Shown one piece after another: positions 2,847 to 21,633 of a stretch of DNA of 21,633 nucleotides. Location: the IMG/VR virus record IMGVR_UViG_3300007760_001202, positions 1 to 21,633 of that record; one strand, given 5' to 3'. Source of the DNA: a virus. The notes below the pieces were generated by a model that was not told the DNA's origin, did not search any database, and saw only the letters and a list, made by a program, of their open reading frames with translations. The stretch's first letter is position 1, and each line of letters begins with the position of its first letter. The position numbers and the translations under genes are program-made.

Positions 2847-3479
2847 TTATACAATCTCGTCCGCAATTCCATATTCCACGGCTTCCTCTGCTGATAAATA
2901 GATATTAACCTTTTGCTCCAGCATTTTTTTAAGTTGGGATTTGGTCATTTTTGTTTCCTCTATTAAACGGTTTATGTACATTGCCTGTAAATCTTGAATA
3001 GCTTCCATTTCATTAACTAAGTTGTGGAGAGAGCCGTGGTTGCCAGCTACCACCGAATGGAGCATGACACGACAGTTTTTTCCAATTTTACGCTTACCGT
3101 GTGTTCCACCGGCGAGGAGGAGCACACCAGCCGACATCACCTTTCCCATCCCAATGGTGCTGATGTCTGTGGTTCCTTGGATTTGCTTCATCATGTCATA
3201 CAAAGCAAACATGTCATCGGCATTACCTCCATATGTAGAAATATAAAAGTCGATGTCTTTCCGTTTAGTTTGGTCTTCAATAAGTTTGTTTTGTTCATTC
3301 ATATACAAAAGAGACAAAATAACCTCTGCTACTTTTTCTTCAACAACATCCGCGAATAGCCCCACTAGTCGCAATTCAGGCTCAGCGTTCTGATCGGCTC
3401 CTCCTTGGACGAGGAGAATCTTTTTACCATCATCCCCTTCTATGAGTTTGTTCACTTTTTCTTTAATACGATCAATCAT
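2847..3479 (-). CDS. ClpP-like serine protease (S14 family), Asn at the triad Asp position
   Basis: This 210-residue protein matches ClpP peptidases in length and order. ISTYGG near residue 80 corresponds to the ClpP INSPGG strand. The nucleophile Ser116 sits in KVMSAGVLLLAGG and His141 in MLHSV, exactly 25 residues apart as in E. coli ClpP. The tail YLSAEEAVEYGIADEI aligns with ClpP FLSAPEAVEYGLVDSI. The triad Asp before that tail is replaced by Asn192 (VNIYLSA), so activity may be altered or lost. ClpP forms heptameric rings that normally need a Clp ATPase; none is in this window. The start has SD CGGAGG and follows the membrane-protein gene closely. Possible roles are host or phage protein turnover or capsid-related processing. 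A second paralogue lies at 9449-10054. Confidence 0.9.
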   Translation of the reverse strand: MIDRIKEKVNKLIEGDDGKKILLVQGGADQNAEPELRLVGLFADVVEEKVAEVILSLLYMNEQNKLIEDQTKRKDIDFYISTYGGNADDMFALYDMMKQIQGTTDISTIGMGKVMSAGVLLLAGGTHGKRKIGKNCRVMLHSVVAGNHGSLHNLVNEMEAIQDLQAMYINRLIEETKMTKSQLKKMLEQKVNIYLSAEEAVEYGIADEIV

Positions 3480-3480
3480 C

Positions 3481-3885
3481 TTAATCCTCCGTAATAAATT
3501 TTATTAAATCATCTCGATTAGTCTCTAAAAATTTCATCGCACTATCCCAGTCATGAAACTTAACCAAGTGGTCAAAGAACCCCCCGTGCGCATCAACAAT
3601 CTTTTGAATGGCGCGCTTTTTATATAACGTCAATTCATCGGTGAATTGACGCTGAAAAGCTTGAAGGTTTTGCTCACTAGCTTTGCTTTCTTTAAGAACA
3701 TTTAAGCGATACTGGCGGGAATATTGAAAATTTTCTAAAGCTTTCACAGTAATAAATAGTGCGATTAATTGAGTGACATGGATTAATTGCATACTTTTTC
3801 GCGCACTGCTCAGAAAATAGAACGTTTTACAGGTTATGTAACCAAACACAAAAACCAAACAATAAAGCCACACGCTATGATCCAT
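3481..3885 (-). CDS. Small membrane-anchored protein of unknown function
   Basis: This 134-residue protein has one clear N-terminal hydrophobic segment (about residues 5-26, WLYCLVFVFGYITCKTFYFL) followed by a Lys/Arg-containing stretch, so an anchored protein with a mostly cytoplasmic body is likely. Residues 35-52 are a second, weaker hydrophobic or amphipathic helix. The remainder is charged and helical, ending in DDLIKFITED. I recognise no family. The ATG at 3885 is preferred. Longer starts at 3897 (ATG) and 3909 (TTG) exist, but 3909 lies inside a terminator hairpin and has no SD, while 3897 has AAGG directly abutting it. It is the first gene after the promoter at 3934-3962 and is followed closely by the ClpP-like gene, so it may be a membrane partner of that protein; this is inference. 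Confidence 0.7.
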   Translation of the reverse strand: MDHSVWLYCLVFVFGYITCKTFYFLSSARKSMQLIHVTQLIALFITVKALENFQYSRQYRLNVLKESKASEQNLQAFQRQFTDELTLYKKRAIQKIVDAHGGFFDHLVKFHDWDSAMKFLETNRDDLIKFITED

Positions 3886-3908
3886 ATCACTTCCCATCCT
3901 TAAAAACA

Positions 3909-3936
3909 AATAACCACTGGGGGTCCAGTGGTTATT
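3909..3936 (-). terminator. Rho-independent terminator, 12-bp perfect stem, 4-base loop
   Basis: On the minus strand, AATAACCACTGG, loop ACCC, CCAGTGGTTATT is followed by TGTTTTTA at 3901-3908. The stem is perfect and the U-rich tail is on the minus-strand side only, so it would end transcripts coming from the acidic-protein gene (stop at 3966). Its 5' arm overlaps the -10 box of the next promoter by three bases. Confidence 0.85.
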
Positions 3937-3962
3937 ATAACTCTTTACAAACTAAAAGTCAA
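3934..3962 (-). promoter_or_regulatory. sigma70-type promoter overlapping the terminator
   Basis: On the minus strand, TTGACT (3957-3962), a 17-base spacer and TATAAT (3934-3939). The -35 box begins two bases before the end of the preceding gene's stop codon region. The expected start near 3926-3928 falls inside the 5' arm of the terminator hairpin. The spacer GTTTGTAAAGAG resembles GTTTAAAAGAG in the GroEL promoter, at the same distance from the -10 box. Confidence 0.8.
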
Positions 3963-3965
3963 TTA

Positions 3966-4574
3966 CTATTTGTGAGTAAGTCGTTGAAAAATCCTCTCAG
4001 TGAGGGCATCAATCATTTCGGCCTTTTTATTTTCTTTAACTAGGCGTGACGCAACACGCTTGGCTACCGCATTTACTAGATCTTCTTTGGTCTCGTATAG
4101 ATCGCGATTTCCAGGCATCTCTTCTACTTCTTCTTCAGCTTCGATGTCCATACCGGCAGGCTCGCCTAAATCTTCTTCAGCCGATACATCTAATTCTTCT
4201 TCACCCCCTTCGAGGTCTACCTCTTCTTCGGCGCCAAGTTCGCCCATTTCAATACTAACTTCTTCTCCGGTCGCGTCTTCAAGCGCGCCGGCAAATGCAC
4301 TCATAAAGTCATCGAGAGAAATTTGCAGCCCATCGCCGCCCATGTCCATGCCCATGTCATCTTCTACTTCGGCGTCCATGGATAACTCATCTTCGACTGG
4401 CTCGTCTGGAGCCATTTCAACTTCGGCATCCATTTCGATCTCTTCGTCTCCAAGCTCCATTGGCTGCTCTTGGAGGCTTAAGCCTTCTACTCTGCTGTTG
4501 CCAACGGCGCCCATATTGGCTAATTTCATAAAACGACGAATCTCTGATTCAGTCAAAAGTTTCTTACGAGCCAT
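3966..4574 (-). CDS. Very acidic protein, scaffold/prohead-core-like, unknown function
   Basis: This 202-residue protein has a basic start (MARKKLLTESEIRRFMKLANM), a long central region (about residues 40-155) made mostly of Asp, Glu, Met and Gly, and a helical C-terminus with Lys/Arg (VASRLVKE, LTERIFQRL). The core carries the repeated phrase MDAEVE, so it is low in complexity. Acidic, helical proteins with short basic ends are typical of phage scaffold or prohead-core proteins, but no diagnostic motif is present, so this role is inference. The start has SD AAAGGAG with seven bases to the ATG. It is the last gene before the terminator at 3909-3936. The long open frame antisense to it is a shadow of the codon bias. 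Confidence 0.8.
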   Translation of the reverse strand: MARKKLLTESEIRRFMKLANMGAVGNSRVEGLSLQEQPMELGDEEIEMDAEVEMAPDEPVEDELSMDAEVEDDMGMDMGGDGLQISLDDFMSAFAGALEDATGEEVSIEMGELGAEEEVDLEGGEEELDVSAEEDLGEPAGMDIEAEEEVEEMPGNRDLYETKEDLVNAVAKRVASRLVKENKKAEMIDALTERIFQRLTHK

Positions 4575-4633: not shown

Positions 4634-4897
4634 TTAAAAATTTAAACCATTCTGTATACAATGCTTTTTTAACTTTTTCAAAGCTTCTGTTTCTATCTGT
4701 TTTACTCTCGCAAAAGAAACATGCAGACGATCTGCAACCTCACGCAAAGTGAGCCTCCCATTCTCATAAACAGAAATCAAAGAACAATTATATTCGGGCG
4801 AATAATCAATCCAAAGACGACATTCTTGCTGGGGACATTTAATTGCGTGGCGACGGCACAGCCGCGAACATTCTAATAAGCCATCACGTTGTTTCAT
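4634..4897 (-). CDS. Short sigma-70 region-4-like DNA-binding protein with Cys cluster
   Basis: This 87-residue protein has two visible parts. Residues 10-26 contain Cys10, Cys14, Cys21 and Cys26, a possible metal site. Residues 49-77 read LTLREVADRLHVSFARVKQIETEALKKL, broken here only by description, and match the helix-turn-helix of sigma factor region 4, which contacts the -35 promoter box. Region 2 is absent, so it cannot be a full sigma factor. It may act as a transcription regulator or a split sigma, which is inference. Its start overlaps the stop of the upstream gene by four bases (ATGA), so the two are translationally coupled. The following acidic-protein gene could be a target of such late-type control. 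Confidence 0.8.
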   Translation of the reverse strand: MKQRDGLLECSRLCRRHAIKCPQQECRLWIDYSPEYNCSLISVYENGRLTLREVADRLHVSFARVKQIETEALKKLKKHCIQNGLNF

Positions 4898-8681: not shown

Positions 8682-8710
8682 AATATAACAAATTCTCTTT
8701 TAAATGTCAA
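8682..8710 (-). promoter_or_regulatory. sigma70-type promoter for the dUTPase-to-scaffold gene block
   Basis: On the minus strand, TTGACA (8705-8710), a 17-base spacer and TATATT (8682-8687), in the 56-base gap between the J-domain gene and the 83-residue gene. The -10 box ends 20 bases before the ATG, and AAGGAGG sits in between. The spacer contains TTTAAAAGAGA, shared with the GroEL promoter at a different offset. Confidence 0.85.
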
Positions 8711-8717
8711 TCACTTT

Positions 8718-9437
8718 CTATAGATTTAATTGAAAAACATGGTTAAGAAAATCACGAATCAAATTATCTTTGCATTCGTCATCTTCGCAATCGGCAAATC
8801 TGTAATTATAGGTGTTTGTCTCTTTTCCTATGCGCCCAATTGTTGTCTTTAGTTCTCTTTTCATCCATCGTGTTTGTTGTTTATAATTTTTGGGAAGCGG
8901 AATGTTATATTTTTCAGCGCACTCCAAAAGCACAAAATACCACCGCTCATCTAGGGCTTCTTTTGCTTTCTTAAACATTGCAAGTTTTTCTTCCCTTTCT
9001 TCTTTAGATAAGTTTTGACTAACGAGTTTGTCCGGATGCAGCTTTAAAGCAATCTTTTTAAACAGCTTAGAAAATATCTCATGAACCTCATCTTCCTCTT
9101 CATCTTCCTCTTTTGGTTTTATCTTAATGTTTTCACCAGGCATGTCGTTATCCTCGGAGACACCTTCGTAAGGGGCTATTCCTGTTGACCCGCTGTAGTG
9201 AGAGGAGGCATCAAACGTGTCATCCAAAGTAGTTCCGTAGAGTTCCTCCAAGTGCTCCGCATGCTTCCGATTAAGCTCATCTAAATCAATATGGTGTCTC
9301 TTACAAAACTCCTCATAATACGACTGAAAGTCTGTTGCTCCTGTGCTGGCAATTTCTTTAATTAAGTCTAATTCGTCATAGGTATAGCGCAACTCATTGA
9401 GAAGCTTCTTCCATTTAAGTTTGTCAGTGACTGCCAC
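8718..9437 (-). CDS. J-domain (DnaJ-like) protein
   Basis: This 239-residue protein contains a J domain in its second half (about 118-175): a helix LFKKIALKL, the invariant His134-Pro-Asp136 motif, then the helix MFKKAKEALDE. J proteins activate the ATPase of Hsp70, so this one would recruit the host DnaK or a phage Hsp70 outside the window. The N-terminal 70 residues are helical (KKLLNELRYTYDELDL), followed by an acidic low-complexity linker, so the J domain is not N-terminal as in DnaJ. The start is GTG at 9437, with no convincing SD; translation may reinitiate after the ClpP-like gene that ends 11 bases upstream. No J-protein zinc-finger repeats are seen. Confidence 0.85.
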   Translation of the reverse strand: MAVTDKLKWKKLLNELRYTYDELDLIKEIASTGATDFQSYYEEFCKRHHIDLDELNRKHAEHLEELYGTTLDDTFDASSHYSGSTGIAPYEGVSEDNDMPGENIKIKPKEEDEEEDEVHEIFSKLFKKIALKLHPDKLVSQNLSKEEREEKLAMFKKAKEALDERWYFVLLECAEKYNIPLPKNYKQQTRWMKRELKTTIGRIGKETNTYNYRFADCEDDECKDNLIRDFLNHVFQLNL

Positions 9438-9448
9438 ACTATAATTAT

Positions 9449-10054
9449 CTATTTAAAGTCAAATTCAATTCTAGCTGAGATCTTTAATTCGGGAATGTGT
9501 CCGTGATTAGCCAGCTTGTGTTTGCGCGCTGCATCAAATTCTAAAAACCAATCGGCATGACCTTTTTCATGAATGATATCTAAGAAATAATCTTTGTGGT
9601 GTCCACAGTTTTCCGCCATCATAGTATAAAGCTTTTGATTCAGGCGCTCGGTCTCAGCCGCGTCAGCTTTAATCTCTTCCACCTTGCCAAAGCCCATCGA
9701 ACTTACATCATGAATCATGAGGGTGGCATCCGGATCCATATAGCGATGACCTTCTGCTCCAAAACTAAACAGCACTGCGCCACACGACATAGCTTTCCCC
9801 TGGACAATCGTGGCCACTGGCAGCGTCGAGTGTTTGATATCTGAAATCATCGACATCAGACTGTACACCTGTCCACCGTAACTATCTATAATTACTGGAA
9901 CAATCGGTTGTCCTGTATTGTGCGCCTTGTTCATTTTGGTGCAAAACTCATTTGCTGCAGCTTCGTCAAACTTCTTGACTCTGATGATAACCGGCAGGTC
10001 ATCGACTAACTCTTTCTCTTTAAGGAGTGGACTAAAATATTTTATTACTTTCAT
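9449..10054 (-). CDS. ClpP-like serine protease (S14 family), triad intact
   Basis: This 201-residue ClpP-type peptidase has the strand IDSYGG (56-61, equivalent to INSPGG), nucleophile Ser90 in GKAMSCGAVLFSFG, His115 in LMIHDVSS (25 residues after Ser as in E. coli ClpP) and Asp168 in HADWFL at the triad Asp position. All three triad residues are therefore present, unlike its paralogue at 2847-3479, from which it is otherwise strongly diverged. The acidic/His-rich stretch around residue 150-165 is unusual. It sits between DNA polymerase III alpha and the J-domain gene, close to both. Proteolysis of host or phage proteins is the likely role; the ATPase partner is not in the window. Confidence 0.9.
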   Translation of the reverse strand: MKVIKYFSPLLKEKELVDDLPVIIRVKKFDEAAANEFCTKMNKAHNTGQPIVPVIIDSYGGQVYSLMSMISDIKHSTLPVATIVQGKAMSCGAVLFSFGAEGHRYMDPDATLMIHDVSSMGFGKVEEIKADAAETERLNQKLYTMMAENCGHHKDYFLDIIHEKGHADWFLEFDAARKHKLANHGHIPELKISARIEFDFK

Positions 10055-10057
10055 TGT

Positions 10058-13000
10058 TTATCCCAATATCTTAAACGTCTTACCAATGGCGTATGTGGAG
10101 AATCCCCACTGTTCATCATATTTCAGGCGCGCCATGTAAGGTCTGTTTAAGTAAATACGATCCTTCTCAGGTTTTACACCCCAACATCTAATCTTTGTCT
10201 GTTGATTGTTGCTATCGATCACTTCCACAATCCAATAAAGCTTCCCGTTCTTGGTCTTTCTCTCGACAATTTTACGAGGAATAAACCAACACACCAAAAG
10301 TTCACGATCAAATTCAGAAATTGGAGGAACTCCTCTCGATTGTAAGTGTTCTATGGTTTCTAAGCTAATAACCAAGTTAATAGGAAATACCCCAGTCAAA
10401 TCAGTTTTAAACTGAATGATTTCTTCTTCCGAGAAATCTCCTTCTGGCTTAAACGTTTCGATGTTTTCGGCCAATTTCTTCAAACTCTTCGGTCGATCTA
10501 CGATACATGCAGACCAAAAGTGCTTCCGACCTGTGAACCGATCATCAACAATGTGGTCGAGGGCTCCGCCGCGACACAAGGCGTCTAATGATTTCTTATT
10601 CAGTTTGCCGTACACAACTTCTTCACGAAACAAAAGATCTTCCGCATTTGTAAACGGACGGTTATTAAGAATCTGCTCAATGGCAGCCATCCCCAATCCC
10701 TTAATAGAGGTGAGCGGCTGAATGAGAGTCTTGCCGTCTTCGCTAATCTCCCACACCGTTCCCGACTTGTTGATATCTAAGGGAGCAATCTTAAATCCAA
10801 ACTGCTTAGCGATGTTAATAGCCTTTTCCTTTCTACTCTCAGGCTCTTTATCAAGAAACGCTGCCATCCACTCGACAGGATAATAGTTCCAGAGCCAAGC
10901 GCACTGGAATGAAATAATACTATAACTGACAGCATGCGACTTGTTGAAACCATAGCCCGAGAAGTACTCGAACTTGTCCCATAGCGATTGGGCTGCGTCC
11001 TTATCTATACCCTTGTCAAGACACCCATTAATGAATTTTGTATGCAACTTTTGTTTGACGCTTCCTTTGCCGGTGCCCTTCTTAGTGAGCACCTTACGAA
11101 GCATGTTGCCTTCATCTAAGGTCAAGCCTCCAAGCTTGTGAGCGAGAAGTGCAATTTGTTCCTGGAAAATAAGGAAGCCGTATGTTTCCTCTGTAATTTC
11201 TCGCGCCTCGTCAGAGAGGTATGAAATATACTGAGGGTGGCTCTTGGCTTCTACATAGTCTGCGTCCACTCCTGCGGAGAGAGGACCGGGTCTAAAGATA
11301 GACGTAACGGCCGACACATCAATGATGTTTTCCGGCTTTCCTCTCACGCAAAAGCTTTGTGCTCCGGTTTCCGTAAACTGGAATATACCAGCCCAGCGTC
11401 CAGCATGAAACACTTTCTTGTAAACCTCTTGATCGTTCATGTCTATAACGTCTGGATGTAAGTTCTTGGCGTAATAGTCTTTTACTTGCTCGAAGGTGGG
11501 ATCCTCCACGCCATGATGGCGGCGCAAAATATGTTCAATACATCCCTCCATCATCTTCAGCGTTGATAGCCCCAACAAATCAAACTTAATGAACCCCATC
11601 GGCTCAAGATGTCGAACGTTCTGACCTTCGGACCAGGGAGTCTGTCGCACTCCACCCGAGTTAATCAAAGGCATGCTTCTATCTAGGTTCTCGGCAATCA
11701 CCACACCACCAGCGTGGCGAGAGCATGAGCGTACCTGTCCAACCAAACCCTCAACGTGAGCTTTGACTGCTGGGTGTGTTGCTAGATATACCTGGAGGGA
11801 AGGTGAGAATTCCATCACCTCTTCCCACGTCGGTGCATACACACCAGCTTTAATACCGTGCTTCTTCTTAGCAATCGGTGTCGCTTCGCGGATCATGACA
11901 CCAGTCACAGTGTTCGCTTCGATGAAGGGAATACCATACAGTTTTGAAATGTCCTTAATGAGCGAGCGAAGCTGCAGCGTGTTCCAATTGGAAATTGGGG
12001 CTACTGTGTCCTCTCCCCACATCTCTACAAGTTTCTCCTTCAAAAGCATACTATCAGAGACATCATAATCAATGTCTGGATAGTCGGTTGCATCTGAACG
12101 CAAGAAGCGAGAGAATAGGAGTCCGTGTTTGATAGGATCAACCTGCGTAATACCGAGGGCATATGCCACAAGAGAACCAGCGGCTGACCCTCGACCTGGA
12201 CCTGCTAGCATCATGCTAGTGGCCACATCAGCGATTGCCTTCATAGTCAAGAAATACTTAGAGAATCCTCGATCACCAATAATGTCTAGCTCGCGCTCAA
12301 GACGCTCAATGTAGGCTTGATTGGTGTGTAGTCCTCTTTCTCTCAAACCTTCGAGAGAAAAGTTGGTTAAAGCTTCTGTATCCGTGAACCCAGCGGGTAC
12401 CACAAACGACGGAAGCCGTACCGTGTTGTCGGGGAAGAAGGTGTCGATTCGCTCGTGCGCGATTGTGTAGGTTTCCTCGATAGAATTAAGCACAATATCA
12501 TCATCGTAATCATAGTCTTTAGCATACTCCTTATAAGATTCCCACATTTGATCGCCGTTCTTTGGATACAATTCATATCCAATTTCTTCGACGCCGTCGG
12601 GTAAATCGCTATCTTCTGCCCAAGAGGGTGTGCCTTTACCAAGCCAACCAAGACGCTTGTAAAGTTCTCGGTCCTTCCAAGCGTCAGGGTTGGGGTAATG
12701 GCTATCGGCTGTAGAAATCAGTCCAACGCCAAACTCTTTGGCCACTGTAATAATATGTTGATTCAGCGCGTGCTGTTCTGGGATATTGTTCCATTGTAAT
12801 TCGGCATACCAACGATCACCAAAGATATCGACCATTTGGCGGGTAGTTTCGCGCATTGCTTCCAGCACTGCTTCGTCACCTTCCTCTCTGTTTTCCCAAT
12901 AATTTCCTGCATATACGCCCCCCAAACATGCGGAAGTGGCAATGATACCTTCGCCATACTTTTTTAAGAGTGCGTAATCTACGCGAGGATAACGGTAATA

Positions 13001-13480: not shown

Positions 13481-14364
13481 TCTTCATCCTTTATAAGACA
13501 TATTTTAGCATGTCGGTGGGGTCCTGTCAAGTCTTTATAAGGTTTAGTAATAATATTATCTGATCCTAAAAAAGCTTTATAATTTTTCCACTCTGAAAGA
13601 TCATGAAACCATTCTAATTCTAAATGCTCACAGTCCGTCACATCAACTTTATCAAACACTGTGGCAAAATCAAAACTTCTAGCTGACCATCTTTGCTCTA
13701 ATGGTAACTTTTGGGAAGGAAACTTTTCTCCTTCGAGCGGTGGTAAATACTCCCGACTCGTTAGTTTGTTTACATTTCGCCTGCATTGTATAAAATCCTT
13801 TCCTCTCATGGTGAAAGACAGCGGTAGGTTGTCTTTTACTGTTTTATTGTAATAGGTAGTAAAAAAATTGGAATTTTTATTGGCAATTTTTTTGCGGTGA
13901 TCGCGCAATGAATAAACATCATAAGCTGCCAGAGGGAAGGAAATAAAATATTTTTCTGGCACGAGCCATTTAGATATTCGGTTTCCCACCCACCATGCCG
14001 AATTTACGCCATGCAAAACAGACCAACCATAAGAATCGCGCCGGCTACGATCACGCACATCTATAGGCACATAATAAATAGGTATTTCCTTTCGCACTTC
14101 TTTATAAAATCTAGTCATGGTCCGATTATAATACACCGGATCGTATACCCATTCCCCTACAGTCTTGCGTACAATAGGAGCTAAGTCAGCGTTGGCCACA
14201 ATCCAAATGGTATCGCAACCTGCCATGGCACATTCAAAAACCGACTTTTGAATGGCTGTAAAACCAGCGTTGAGCGGCAACATACACACGGGCACCTCCC
14301 CATCGTAATCTGTTTCCAAATTAGCGAGAGGGATAATGCCGGCAACGTGTACAGTTCCACTCAC
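13477..14364 (-). CDS. Nucleotidyltransferase-fold-like protein of unknown substrate
   Basis: This 295-residue protein begins VHVAGIIPLANLETDYDG (residues 5-22), then VCMLPLNAGFTAIQKSVFECAMAGCDTIWIVANAD in parts up to Asp60, and later GWSVLHGVNSAW and FISFPLAAYD. This order (glycine/proline loop, helix, AGCDTIWIV strand, Asp) resembles the sugar-nucleotide or MobA-type nucleotidyltransferase fold, although the classic GGxGTRL loop is missing. The C-terminal 100 residues are unassigned. It starts with GTG and overlaps the preceding stop (GTGA). It ends four bases into the polymerase gene. A conserved but uncharacterised phage protein, possibly acting with the gene at 14361-15233; the substrate is unknown. 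Confidence 0.8.
   Translation of the reverse strand: MSGTVHVAGIIPLANLETDYDGEVPVCMLPLNAGFTAIQKSVFECAMAGCDTIWIVANADLAPIVRKTVGEWVYDPVYYNRTMTRFYKEVRKEIPIYYVPIDVRDRSRRDSYGWSVLHGVNSAWWVGNRISKWLVPEKYFISFPLAAYDVYSLRDHRKKIANKNSNFFTTYYNKTVKDNLPLSFTMRGKDFIQCRRNVNKLTSREYLPPLEGEKFPSQKLPLEQRWSARSFDFATVFDKVDVTDCEHLELEWFHDLSEWKNYKAFLGSDNIITKPYKDLTGPHRHAKICLIKDEE
13502..13530 (-). promoter_or_regulatory. Candidate internal promoter for DNA polymerase III alpha
   Basis: On the minus strand, TTGACA (13525-13530), a 17-base spacer and TAAAAT (13502-13507), within the last codons of the nucleotidyltransferase-like gene. The -10 box ends 21 bases before the polymerase ATG, the same geometry as at the GroEL and 8682-8710 promoters. 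It overlaps coding sequence, so chance is harder to exclude. Confidence 0.5.
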
Positions 14365-20339: not shown

Positions 20340-21323
20340 CTAAACAGCTTCGTCTTTTTTCTTCATGTTGCAGTTATAGTTGATGCGATTCAAGGCAGTT
20401 CGAAGATCTTCCCAGTTTAACTCTCCGAAGCCATCCTCTCTCATCATGCGTATAATTTCTGTCTTATTAAATGTACATTCAAAGTTTTCAATAGCCTCTT
20501 TCACAACCATTTTAGATTGAAAAGACATCTGAGGAACGTACAGTTGCATCATTGTATAATTATGTTCAACAACCTCCTTTCCCTCCACAATATTGGAAAA
20601 GAATTTAAGTTTACTGTTTGTTTTTTTGCAGAAATCTATAACCTCTTGAATTGTATAAGCTTTCTCGGCCGATAAAAAATTGAGCCTTTTTGCAACCGTC
20701 GCAAAGCCGGCGCCCTTGATCCCCGGAAGGTTATCCGAGGGATCGCCAATGATGGCGCGCGCTAGTGCCATGTTGGTGGGGTGCACTCCCATTTGTTCCA
20801 CAATGCGCTGTTTGTTTAGGACCTCTTTCTTGGTAGGTCGATATAACACCGTCTCTTCGTCGCATAACTGCATAAAGTCCTTGTCATTGGAGACAATAAT
20901 TTTTTGCCATCCTTTATAGTATTCCATCTGGGTGAGATAAGCAATCACATCGTCAGCTTCAATCTCTGGGATGATCGTTTGCACAATGGGCATTTCATTA
21001 AGGTACTCCATCACTCTCACCTGTTGCCAAGTTTTGTTTTCTACTACTTCGTCCTCTGAAAGGTTATGGAAAGCACGGTTTAAGCGCAAAGGTTTGCGAC
21101 CGTCCTTATAGTTTTTGTCCATAATCTTTCGCCTCTTTGAGCCATTAGGTCCGTCCCAAATCACTGCGATTTCGTCTGGATTTGTTTCTCGCACTAGCTT
21201 CTGTAGGATTTTCATAAACCCTTTGATTCCTCCAATGGGTTGTCCATTAGAGGAGAGGCTCGGATCTACAATATAAGCTCTCAAGTATGCGTTTAACGCA
21301 TCAATAATCAACACTCTTTTCAT
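20340..21323 (-). CDS. FEN-type 5'-3' exonuclease (RNase H/flap nuclease)
   Basis: This 327-residue nuclease removes RNA primers or flaps during replication. Visible acidic metal-site clusters match the FEN/T4 RNase H family: Asp8 in LIIDALN, Asp57 in IWDG, Glu120, Glu122, Asp124 and Asp125 in PEIEADDVIA, Asp147 and Asp149 in SNDKDF, and Asp194 and Asp197 in GDPSDNLPGIKGAG, which is also the helix-hairpin-helix-like H3TH. The C-terminal 100 residues differ from DNA polymerase I and are not linked to a polymerase domain, so this is a stand-alone nuclease. Its ATG overlaps the stop of the small Cys-rich gene by four bases. Confidence 0.92.
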   Translation of the reverse strand: MKRVLIIDALNAYLRAYIVDPSLSSNGQPIGGIKGFMKILQKLVRETNPDEIAVIWDGPNGSKRRKIMDKNYKDGRKPLRLNRAFHNLSEDEVVENKTWQQVRVMEYLNEMPIVQTIIPEIEADDVIAYLTQMEYYKGWQKIIVSNDKDFMQLCDEETVLYRPTKKEVLNKQRIVEQMGVHPTNMALARAIIGDPSDNLPGIKGAGFATVAKRLNFLSAEKAYTIQEVIDFCKKTNSKLKFFSNIVEGKEVVEHNYTMMQLYVPQMSFQSKMVVKEAIENFECTFNKTEIIRMMREDGFGELNWEDLRTALNRINYNCNMKKKDEAV

Positions 21324-21489: not shown

Positions 21490-21633
21490 TCACAGTCTAT
21501 AGCTCCCGACTTCATCGTCATCAATAGTGTATACCACACGTTTCACGCCTACATATTTCAACGCCGCATGACACATGGAACAAGGCTTGCTCAATCTATA
21601 TTGGTCATCAGTTTTTCCTACGCGAGCCACATA
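21490..21633 (-). CDS. Zinc-dependent nucleotide deaminase (dCMP deaminase-like), 5'-truncated by window edge
   Basis: Only the last 47 residues are in the window. The zinc-site signature SKPCSMCHAAL and the following YVGVKRVVYTIDD match the cytidine/deoxycytidylate deaminase superfamily (PCxxC with strand and helix). dCMP deaminase would make dUMP for dTMP, which fits the dUTPase in this window; cytidine or tRNA adenosine deaminases share this motif, so the substrate is not proven. The His/Cys-Ala-Glu half of the active site lies outside the window. The tail EVGSYRL is short. Confidence 0.8.
   Translation of the reverse strand, partial: YVARVGKTDDQYRLSKPCSMCHAALKYVGVKRVVYTIDDDEVGSYRL

Follow-up and report, generated by a model that had tools for sequence, protein, structure and literature searches.

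Genes and features at the junction

The window, a 21,633-base record of an uncultured virus in IMG/VR, carries on its minus strand a junction between a gene for an acidic 202-aa protein and a gene for a 134-aa protein, with a ClpP-like gene next downstream (Table 1). The order acidic gene, promoter, hairpin, membrane-like gene and ClpP-like gene also occurs in numerous relatives among uncultured phage contigs. Neither the acidic protein nor the 134-aa protein matched a family in Pfam or PHROGs; the latter has relatives and an N-terminal hydrophobic stretch, judged by eye, which makes it membrane-like. Its gene most likely starts at ATG 3885, while the listed ORF start, TTG 3909, falls within the hairpin. 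The junction DNA gave no similarity match to annotated phages, Rfam at the gathering threshold gave no hit, and a tRNA search found none. The gene immediately upstream of the acidic gene (4634-4897, minus strand) encodes a small protein in which Pfam detects a sigma-70 region 4 domain (1e-9), and this protein might have a bearing on promoter use.

Table 1 Features of the junction and its flanking genes in the window.
Feature	Position	Strand	Basis and remarks
Acidic 202-aa protein gene (upstream)	3966..4574	-	ORF; stop codon 3 nt ahead of the -35
-35 hexamer TTGACT	3957..3962	-	Sequence; 5/6 consensus; relatives mostly TTGACA, sometimes TTGACT
-10 hexamer TATAAT	3934..3939	-	Sequence; last 3 bases are the first 3 of the hairpin 5' arm
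Hairpin 5' arm	3925..3936	-	Sequence and folding; 9-10/12 nt upstream of the expected start
Expected transcription start	3926..3927	-	Predicted from sigma70 rules
Hairpin loop ACCC	3921-3924	-	Sequence
Hairpin 3' arm	3909..3920	-	Sequence and folding; co-variation in relatives
U-rich tail TGTTTTTAAG	3899..3908	-	Sequence
134-aa protein gene (downstream)	3481..3885	-	ORF, ATG 3885; relatives detected
ClpP-like protein gene	2847..3479	-	Pfam CLP_protease 2e-31; PHROGs head maturation protease 7e-21

The promoter (3962-3934, minus strand) consists of TTGACT, a 17-nt spacer and TATAAT, with 11 of 12 consensus matches; it has the near-consensus hexamers and the 16-18 bp spacing of the sigma70 type. 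The hairpin, AATAACCACTGG-ACCC-CCAGTGGTTATT (3936-3909, minus strand), has 12 perfect pairs, five of them G-C, and leads directly into a U-rich stretch, as in the sequence of an intrinsic (Rho-independent) terminator; the U-run (TGTTTTT) is broken by one G. The inverted repeat spans about -9 to +19 of the promoter. An earlier note on this DNA had described a 12-bp perfect hairpin with a U-rich tail on the minus strand, whose coordinates hold base for base, and a TTGACT-17-TATAAT promoter whose -10 box shares three bases with the 5' arm, which is exact in the sequence. The start that it predicted (3926-3928) contains the seventh and eighth nucleotides past the -10, T3927 and G3926, where sigma70 rules place it; G3926 is the first purine there.

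Folding of the two RNAs and comparison with chance

The RNA of 3936-3896 folds at -17.0 kcal/mol (z -4.2), and none of 200 shuffles was equally stable. With the predicted start, the promoter's own RNA is expected to lack 9-10 nt of the 12-nt 5' arm. When RNA was begun at 3927 or 3926, the hairpin no longer formed and the whole leader reached -6.0 kcal/mol; beginning at 3929 or 3928 left only the apical 5 or 4 pairs. RNA begun at 3933 retained nine pairs, and escape from the hairpin therefore depends on a normal start distance. We dropped the idea of bidirectional termination because the tail on the plus strand, TATTATAAC, is poor, even though the hairpin there is equally stable (-17.9 kcal/mol). 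Processing of a 12-bp stem by RNase III is unlikely.

Simulation of 400 one-strand windows under a Markov-1 model yielded 103 promoters with at least 11/12 matches, and none had an adjoining stem of 7+ bp with a T-tail. Random 74-mers placed after a -10 had a stem of this kind in 0.59% of cases and a stem of 10+ bp in 0.005%. A chance origin of the promoter-hairpin junction is excluded. The window itself has six promoters with at least 11/12 matches on the minus strand and none on the plus strand, and the hairpin stands at one of these six. A weaker promoter (10/12) with an adjoining hairpin was noticed on the plus strand (13808-13842), inside minus-strand genes.

Conservation among relatives

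To locate the junction in relatives, we used as a marker the ClpP-like gene that lies beyond the 134-aa protein gene. A first scan located 80 loci, and in 78 of them the junction has a promoter of at least 10/12 matches with a hairpin after it (two of the 78, L059 and L079, are missed by a stricter stem and tail filter). The exceptions are L021, whose contig is cut off, and L041, which has the hairpin without a promoter. Two pairs of loci (L003/L065 and L004/L006) represent the window's own population, differing at 0-3 positions across about 4-6 kb to either side. Two further scans from distant ClpP queries brought the total to 192 loci; L021 was too short, and the remaining loci gave 155 distinct upstream regions, some of which come from one contig whose match began at a different point. 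Kept outside the analysis were L005, a distant relative with 22% identity, and L226, a piece around it.

The promoter is present in 154 of the 155 distinct upstream regions (L140 counted), and 141 have both the promoter and a perfect adjoining hairpin with a T-tail, defined as a perfect stem of 7+ bp beginning at most 10 nt after the -10 and followed by at least four T in eight; these 141 reduce to 90 distinct junction sequences. The numbers 155, 154, 141 and 90 count distinct sequences and not independent events. Among the 13 other regions, nine have imperfect hairpins with T-runs when judged by eye (L125, L128, L129, L130, L136, L138, L165, L175 and L184), three entries from two contigs (L132, L144 and L156) share a common junction with a decayed hairpin, and L140 is not comparable, as its match starts at residue 44. 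At the decayed junction the promoter is intact, the 5' arm is nearly gone, and the 3' arm and T-run are left, a natural case of hairpin loss.

The earlier note had suggested comparing related phages for conservation of the overlap: the promoter-hairpin junction is kept, but the register of the hairpin to the -10 varies, from a 3-nt overlap (5 nt in L173) to a 7-nt gap. In all 90 junctions the -35 starts close to the upstream stop codon, from 4 nt ahead of the codon's end (taken where the longest open frame terminates) to 8 nt past it, with a median of 1 nt past. We infer that a terminator must stand some way off the stop codon to be free of the ribosome and that the promoter takes up the intervening DNA. 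A motif near TTACGAGnnGT was observed in the -35/-10 spacer of L010, L025, L047, L050, L073 and others, phages that are otherwise diverged; it is possibly a regulator site or a sign of shared ancestry.

Co-variation of the stem

We aligned the 80 distinct hairpins of the 90 junctions with MAFFT. Paired cells amounted to 85.1%, compared with 25.2-59.1% when the partner was slid by 1-3 columns, and 114 double-sided changes, seen in 8 of the 12 pairs, were counted against 24.8 in shuffles; every pairing measure was above all 500 shuffles. The stem sequence varies while its pairing is kept. The double-sided changes are the better evidence because the stems had been chosen for perfect pairing, which favours structure. 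A pairing count of 609/609 upstream of the start was set aside, as perfect pairing was demanded by the stem caller.

Most of the double-sided cells (81/114) are in columns 19-21, which in rows where the hairpin overlaps the -10 lie at or after the expected start; the other 33 are in columns 11, 12, 13, 17 and 18, upstream of it in such rows. Part of the column 17 changes come from a side clade in which those bases belong to the promoter's own RNA. The column pair 11-46 is A-U in 39 hairpins, U-A in 16, G-U or G-C in five and unpaired in 20. Column 11 is a -10 base in the rows with a 3-nt overlap; in these, a promoter position and its partner in the 3' arm have thus changed jointly. A pair with its 5' base ahead of the start can form only in RNA derived from upstream, which supports a role of the hairpin in read-through RNA.

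Predicted loss of the hairpin from the promoter's own RNA

For the 90 junctions, the start was assumed to be the first purine among positions 7, 8, 9 and 6 after the -10, in that order. A purine at 7, 8 or 9 is present in 89 of them, a weak test since purines are common there. The own RNA would lose at least 8 nt of the 5' arm in 35 junctions, 5-7 nt in 35, 4 nt in 11, 1-3 nt in six and none in three, that is, at least 4 nt in 81/90. The median hairpin stability falls from -16.4 kcal/mol in the full RNA to -4.5 in the own RNA. A hairpin of -10 kcal/mol or better is kept in the own RNA of 17 junctions (L033, L045, L047, L048, L050, L053, L057, L058, L059, L073, L078, L081, L082, L142, L154, L161 and L162), and nothing stronger remains in the other 73. 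With the start fixed at 6, 7, 8 or 9 nt after the -10, the keepers number 34, 17, 12 and 9 of 90, respectively. Escape is therefore not a rule for the whole family.

On a quick ClpP tree of 89 junctions (L142 was too short), 12 of the 16 keepers fall into one clade together with L061; the clade has an SH-aLRT value of 87 and is not starred. The tree needs six changes, and its starred branches force four. Stems in this clade are mostly G+C-rich. Three keepers, L047, L058 and L073, lose none of the 5' arm and would have the entire hairpin in their own RNA, with a poor T-tail. Escape thus appears to be the common state, and one clade would have lost it or uses the hairpin otherwise. The hairpin of this side clade lies further downstream, within the own RNA, and may be a leaky attenuator or a 5' stem-loop.

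A second element with the -10 box inside the hairpin

A contig of the window's population (G001) has an element of a different geometry at C1:40326-40354 (minus strand), about 325 bp past window position 21633. Its sequence reads TTGACTT AAGCCTCCC ACTTGGT TATAAT ATAACTAACT GGGAGG TTTTTGTG. The -35/-10 spacer contains the 5' arm, the hairpin (-22.2 kcal/mol) encloses the -10, and the expected start is just before the outer 3' arm, in which GGGAGG can serve as a Shine-Dalgarno sequence. This loop-type element was also found in G019, before the same gene as in G001, and before different genes in G006 and G008.

An IMG/VR scan for a promoter with GGAGG, a T-run and ATG matched 76 contigs with 52 distinct sequences. 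A helix between the spacer and the GGAGG arm was present at 8+ bp in 24/52 and at 6+ bp in 28/52, compared with 5/86 and 19/86 among the matches listed for a control with an A-run (Fisher p 3e-8 and 2e-4, values that are optimistic because the 52 include related sequences). Lower G+C in the A-run spacers (0.33 among the matches listed, against 0.42 for the T-run set) accounts for part of the difference. Swapping the spacers among the 52 left the helix in 5.0% (8+ bp) and 25.5% (6+ bp), and among the matches listed for cellular genomes it occurred in 11/118 and 34/118, respectively. When TATAAT was searched between CCTCC and GGAGG, a -35 of at least 5/6 matches accompanied 32 of 72 distinct sequences among the matches listed, compared with 4 of 56 for TAATAT (p 3e-6), with some matches common to both scans. 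The observed coupling of the hairpin to the T-run is as expected of a terminator, and the loop-type element could apparently provide both termination and a block to translation.

Promoters and hairpins across the genomes

The promoters of these phages are close to consensus: the exact pattern TTGAC-N18-TATAAT occurred at 74 sites in 17 contigs and the reversed pattern at one; 16 of the 17 contigs have these sites on one strand only, and some contigs, e.g., G005 and G014, have their sites in common. The junction hairpin is the only intergenic hairpin with a T-run to pass our filter on the coding strand of the 48.5-kb contig that represents the window's population; three others lie inside ORFs. 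Five long contigs have 9, 20, 10, 10 and 18 promoters with at least 11/12 matches, and the filter retained one hairpin-bearing promoter in each, that at the ClpP junction; two further promoter-hairpins, in G006 and G008, are of the loop type. An intergenic hairpin with a T-tail was also noted at G005 coding position 21097, 2 nt after a weaker promoter (10/12, TAAACA-17-TATAAT), and is possibly a third instance.

Proposed function and alternatives

We propose that the junction is a 64-bp two-way boundary element between two transcription units. Polymerase arriving from the acidic-protein gene would transcribe both arms and the U-rich tail and stop at about 3899-3908 by intrinsic termination. 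Polymerase at the overlapping sigma70-type promoter would start at about 3927/3926, within the 5' arm; its RNA would be without the basal 9-10 nt of that arm, so that the 3' arm would be single-stranded beside the U-tract, and this transcript would elongate onward into the membrane-like and ClpP-like genes. From the sequences and their folding, we infer the terminator function, the position of the RNA start and insulation as a selected trait. That read-through RNA is terminated, own RNA escapes and the two units are insulated from each other is, in our judgement, likely; our confidence goes no higher because the double-sided changes lie mostly at or after the expected start. The claim of the earlier note that read-through RNA forms the full hairpin and own RNA cannot is supported for the window, where geometry, folding, conservation, co-variation and the second element agree with it, but it is not universal, given the 17 keepers.

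The arrangement might instead reflect compaction only, a terminator and a promoter squeezed into a short intergenic gap in a register that has no selected escape function. The -35 lies at most 8 nt from the stop-codon end throughout and the hairpin slides relative to the -10, as expected from mere packing; however, a promoter with a terminator right behind it would suffer unless its own RNA escapes, and the loop-type element reaches the same property by a different geometry, and we regard compaction alone as unlikely. Part of the overlap may come from compaction. Alternatively, the own RNA could be the main target of the hairpin, which would be a leaky or regulated terminator similar to an actuaton (see below) or a 5' stem-loop that stabilises the RNA. 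The 17 junctions that keep the hairpin, the grouping of 12 of the 16 tree-placed keepers in one clade, and the intact 5' arms with poor U-tracts in L047, L058 and L073 point in this direction. In the window, by contrast, starts from 3929 to 3926 leave remnants of only 0-5 pairs, and in 73 of the 90 junctions nothing stronger than -10 kcal/mol remains, which makes such a role quite improbable as the general explanation. The inverted repeat could also work as DNA, either as a cruciform or as a protein-binding operator over the -10, since it reaches from about -9 to +19 of the promoter. This is hardly credible: most relatives have a T-run after the repeat, pairing is maintained as the stem sequence changes, and the register to the -10 differs by at least 10 nt between relatives, unlike an operator.

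Comparison with known systems

In phage T4, RNA of gene e that starts within the 5' strand of a hairpin is established to escape it; the full hairpin blocks translation of this gene (PMC3014915). In the gene e, soc, 49 and I-TevI leaders, as predicted for the window element, RNA from upstream carries the full hairpin and is silenced. The T4 hairpins hide the ribosome binding site and block translation, whereas the window hairpin is a predicted terminator; the T4 promoters are late gp55 promoters, whereas that of the window is of the sigma70 type. Sequestration of this kind is absent from the window, where the start codon at 3885 and the purine-rich stretch preceding it lie after the tail; the loop-type element of G001, unlike the window junction, carries GGGAGG in its 3' arm. 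The principle of a start inside a hairpin is thus known from T4 gene e for translation, and its use for termination looks new. Gene III of filamentous phages is a possible precedent; a literature search on it brought no usable result.

Kayviruses, like the window, have a terminator and a promoter (t97/p98) at one junction; p98 comes immediately after t97 with no overlap mentioned in the available part of that account (PMC7698491), whereas the window elements overlap. The same account places one late-promoter-like sequence just before terminator t33 (PMC7698491). Cyanobacterial actuatons resemble the window in having a promoter and then an incomplete terminator before a gene, but termination of the actuaton's own RNA yields an sRNA, and gene expression depends on read-through (PMC5386190), whereas the own RNA of the window should escape. 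A complete terminator in the own RNA, the mark of an actuaton, is absent from the window for starts at 3927/3926, and a stable hairpin is kept in 17 of the 90 junctions; the side clade with the shifted hairpin is closer to actuatons than the window is. The text on terminators and overlap in the LUZ100 report contains no such element (PMC10134795), and the word "terminator" is absent from the available text of a review on T4 late genes (PMC2988020). The open-licence literature, searched with narrow terms, yielded no recognised description of a promoter whose RNA escapes an overlapping terminator, which is weak evidence of absence.

Elements with a start inside a terminator may be a general phage device, of about 55-65 bp, that keeps neighbouring units independent without any protein. 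This reading comprises, jointly, a terminator for incoming RNA, a sigma70 promoter that escapes the hairpin and, in the loop type, a Shine-Dalgarno sequence in the 3' arm; we give it an even chance. If it is correct, adjacent transcription units would be insulated in very little space, and the 3'-arm Shine-Dalgarno sequence would also bar leaked read-through RNA from translation. The junction is conserved across diverse uncultured phages, and the other geometry is present in further viral contigs. The simple prediction is that start and stop map within one hairpin. For annotation, a terminator called directly after a promoter need not silence that promoter. The element may also be a compact part for synthetic constructs, and the side clade with the shifted hairpin offers a natural experiment on the loss of escape.

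Additional observations

A second ClpP-like protein is encoded in the window at 9449-10054 (minus strand; Pfam 3e-21), besides that at the junction. In L003, a GroEL-like chaperonin (8710-10281, plus strand; PHROGs 2e-140) follows a 533-aa gene downstream of the junction. Near-identical start regions, with TATA(A/T)T followed by ATAGGTATAGAAA, were observed at G005 coding positions 82908, 85858, 89717, 92381, 94233, 95822 and 97387, which looks like the copying of a single promoter-leader cassette to several places in the genome.
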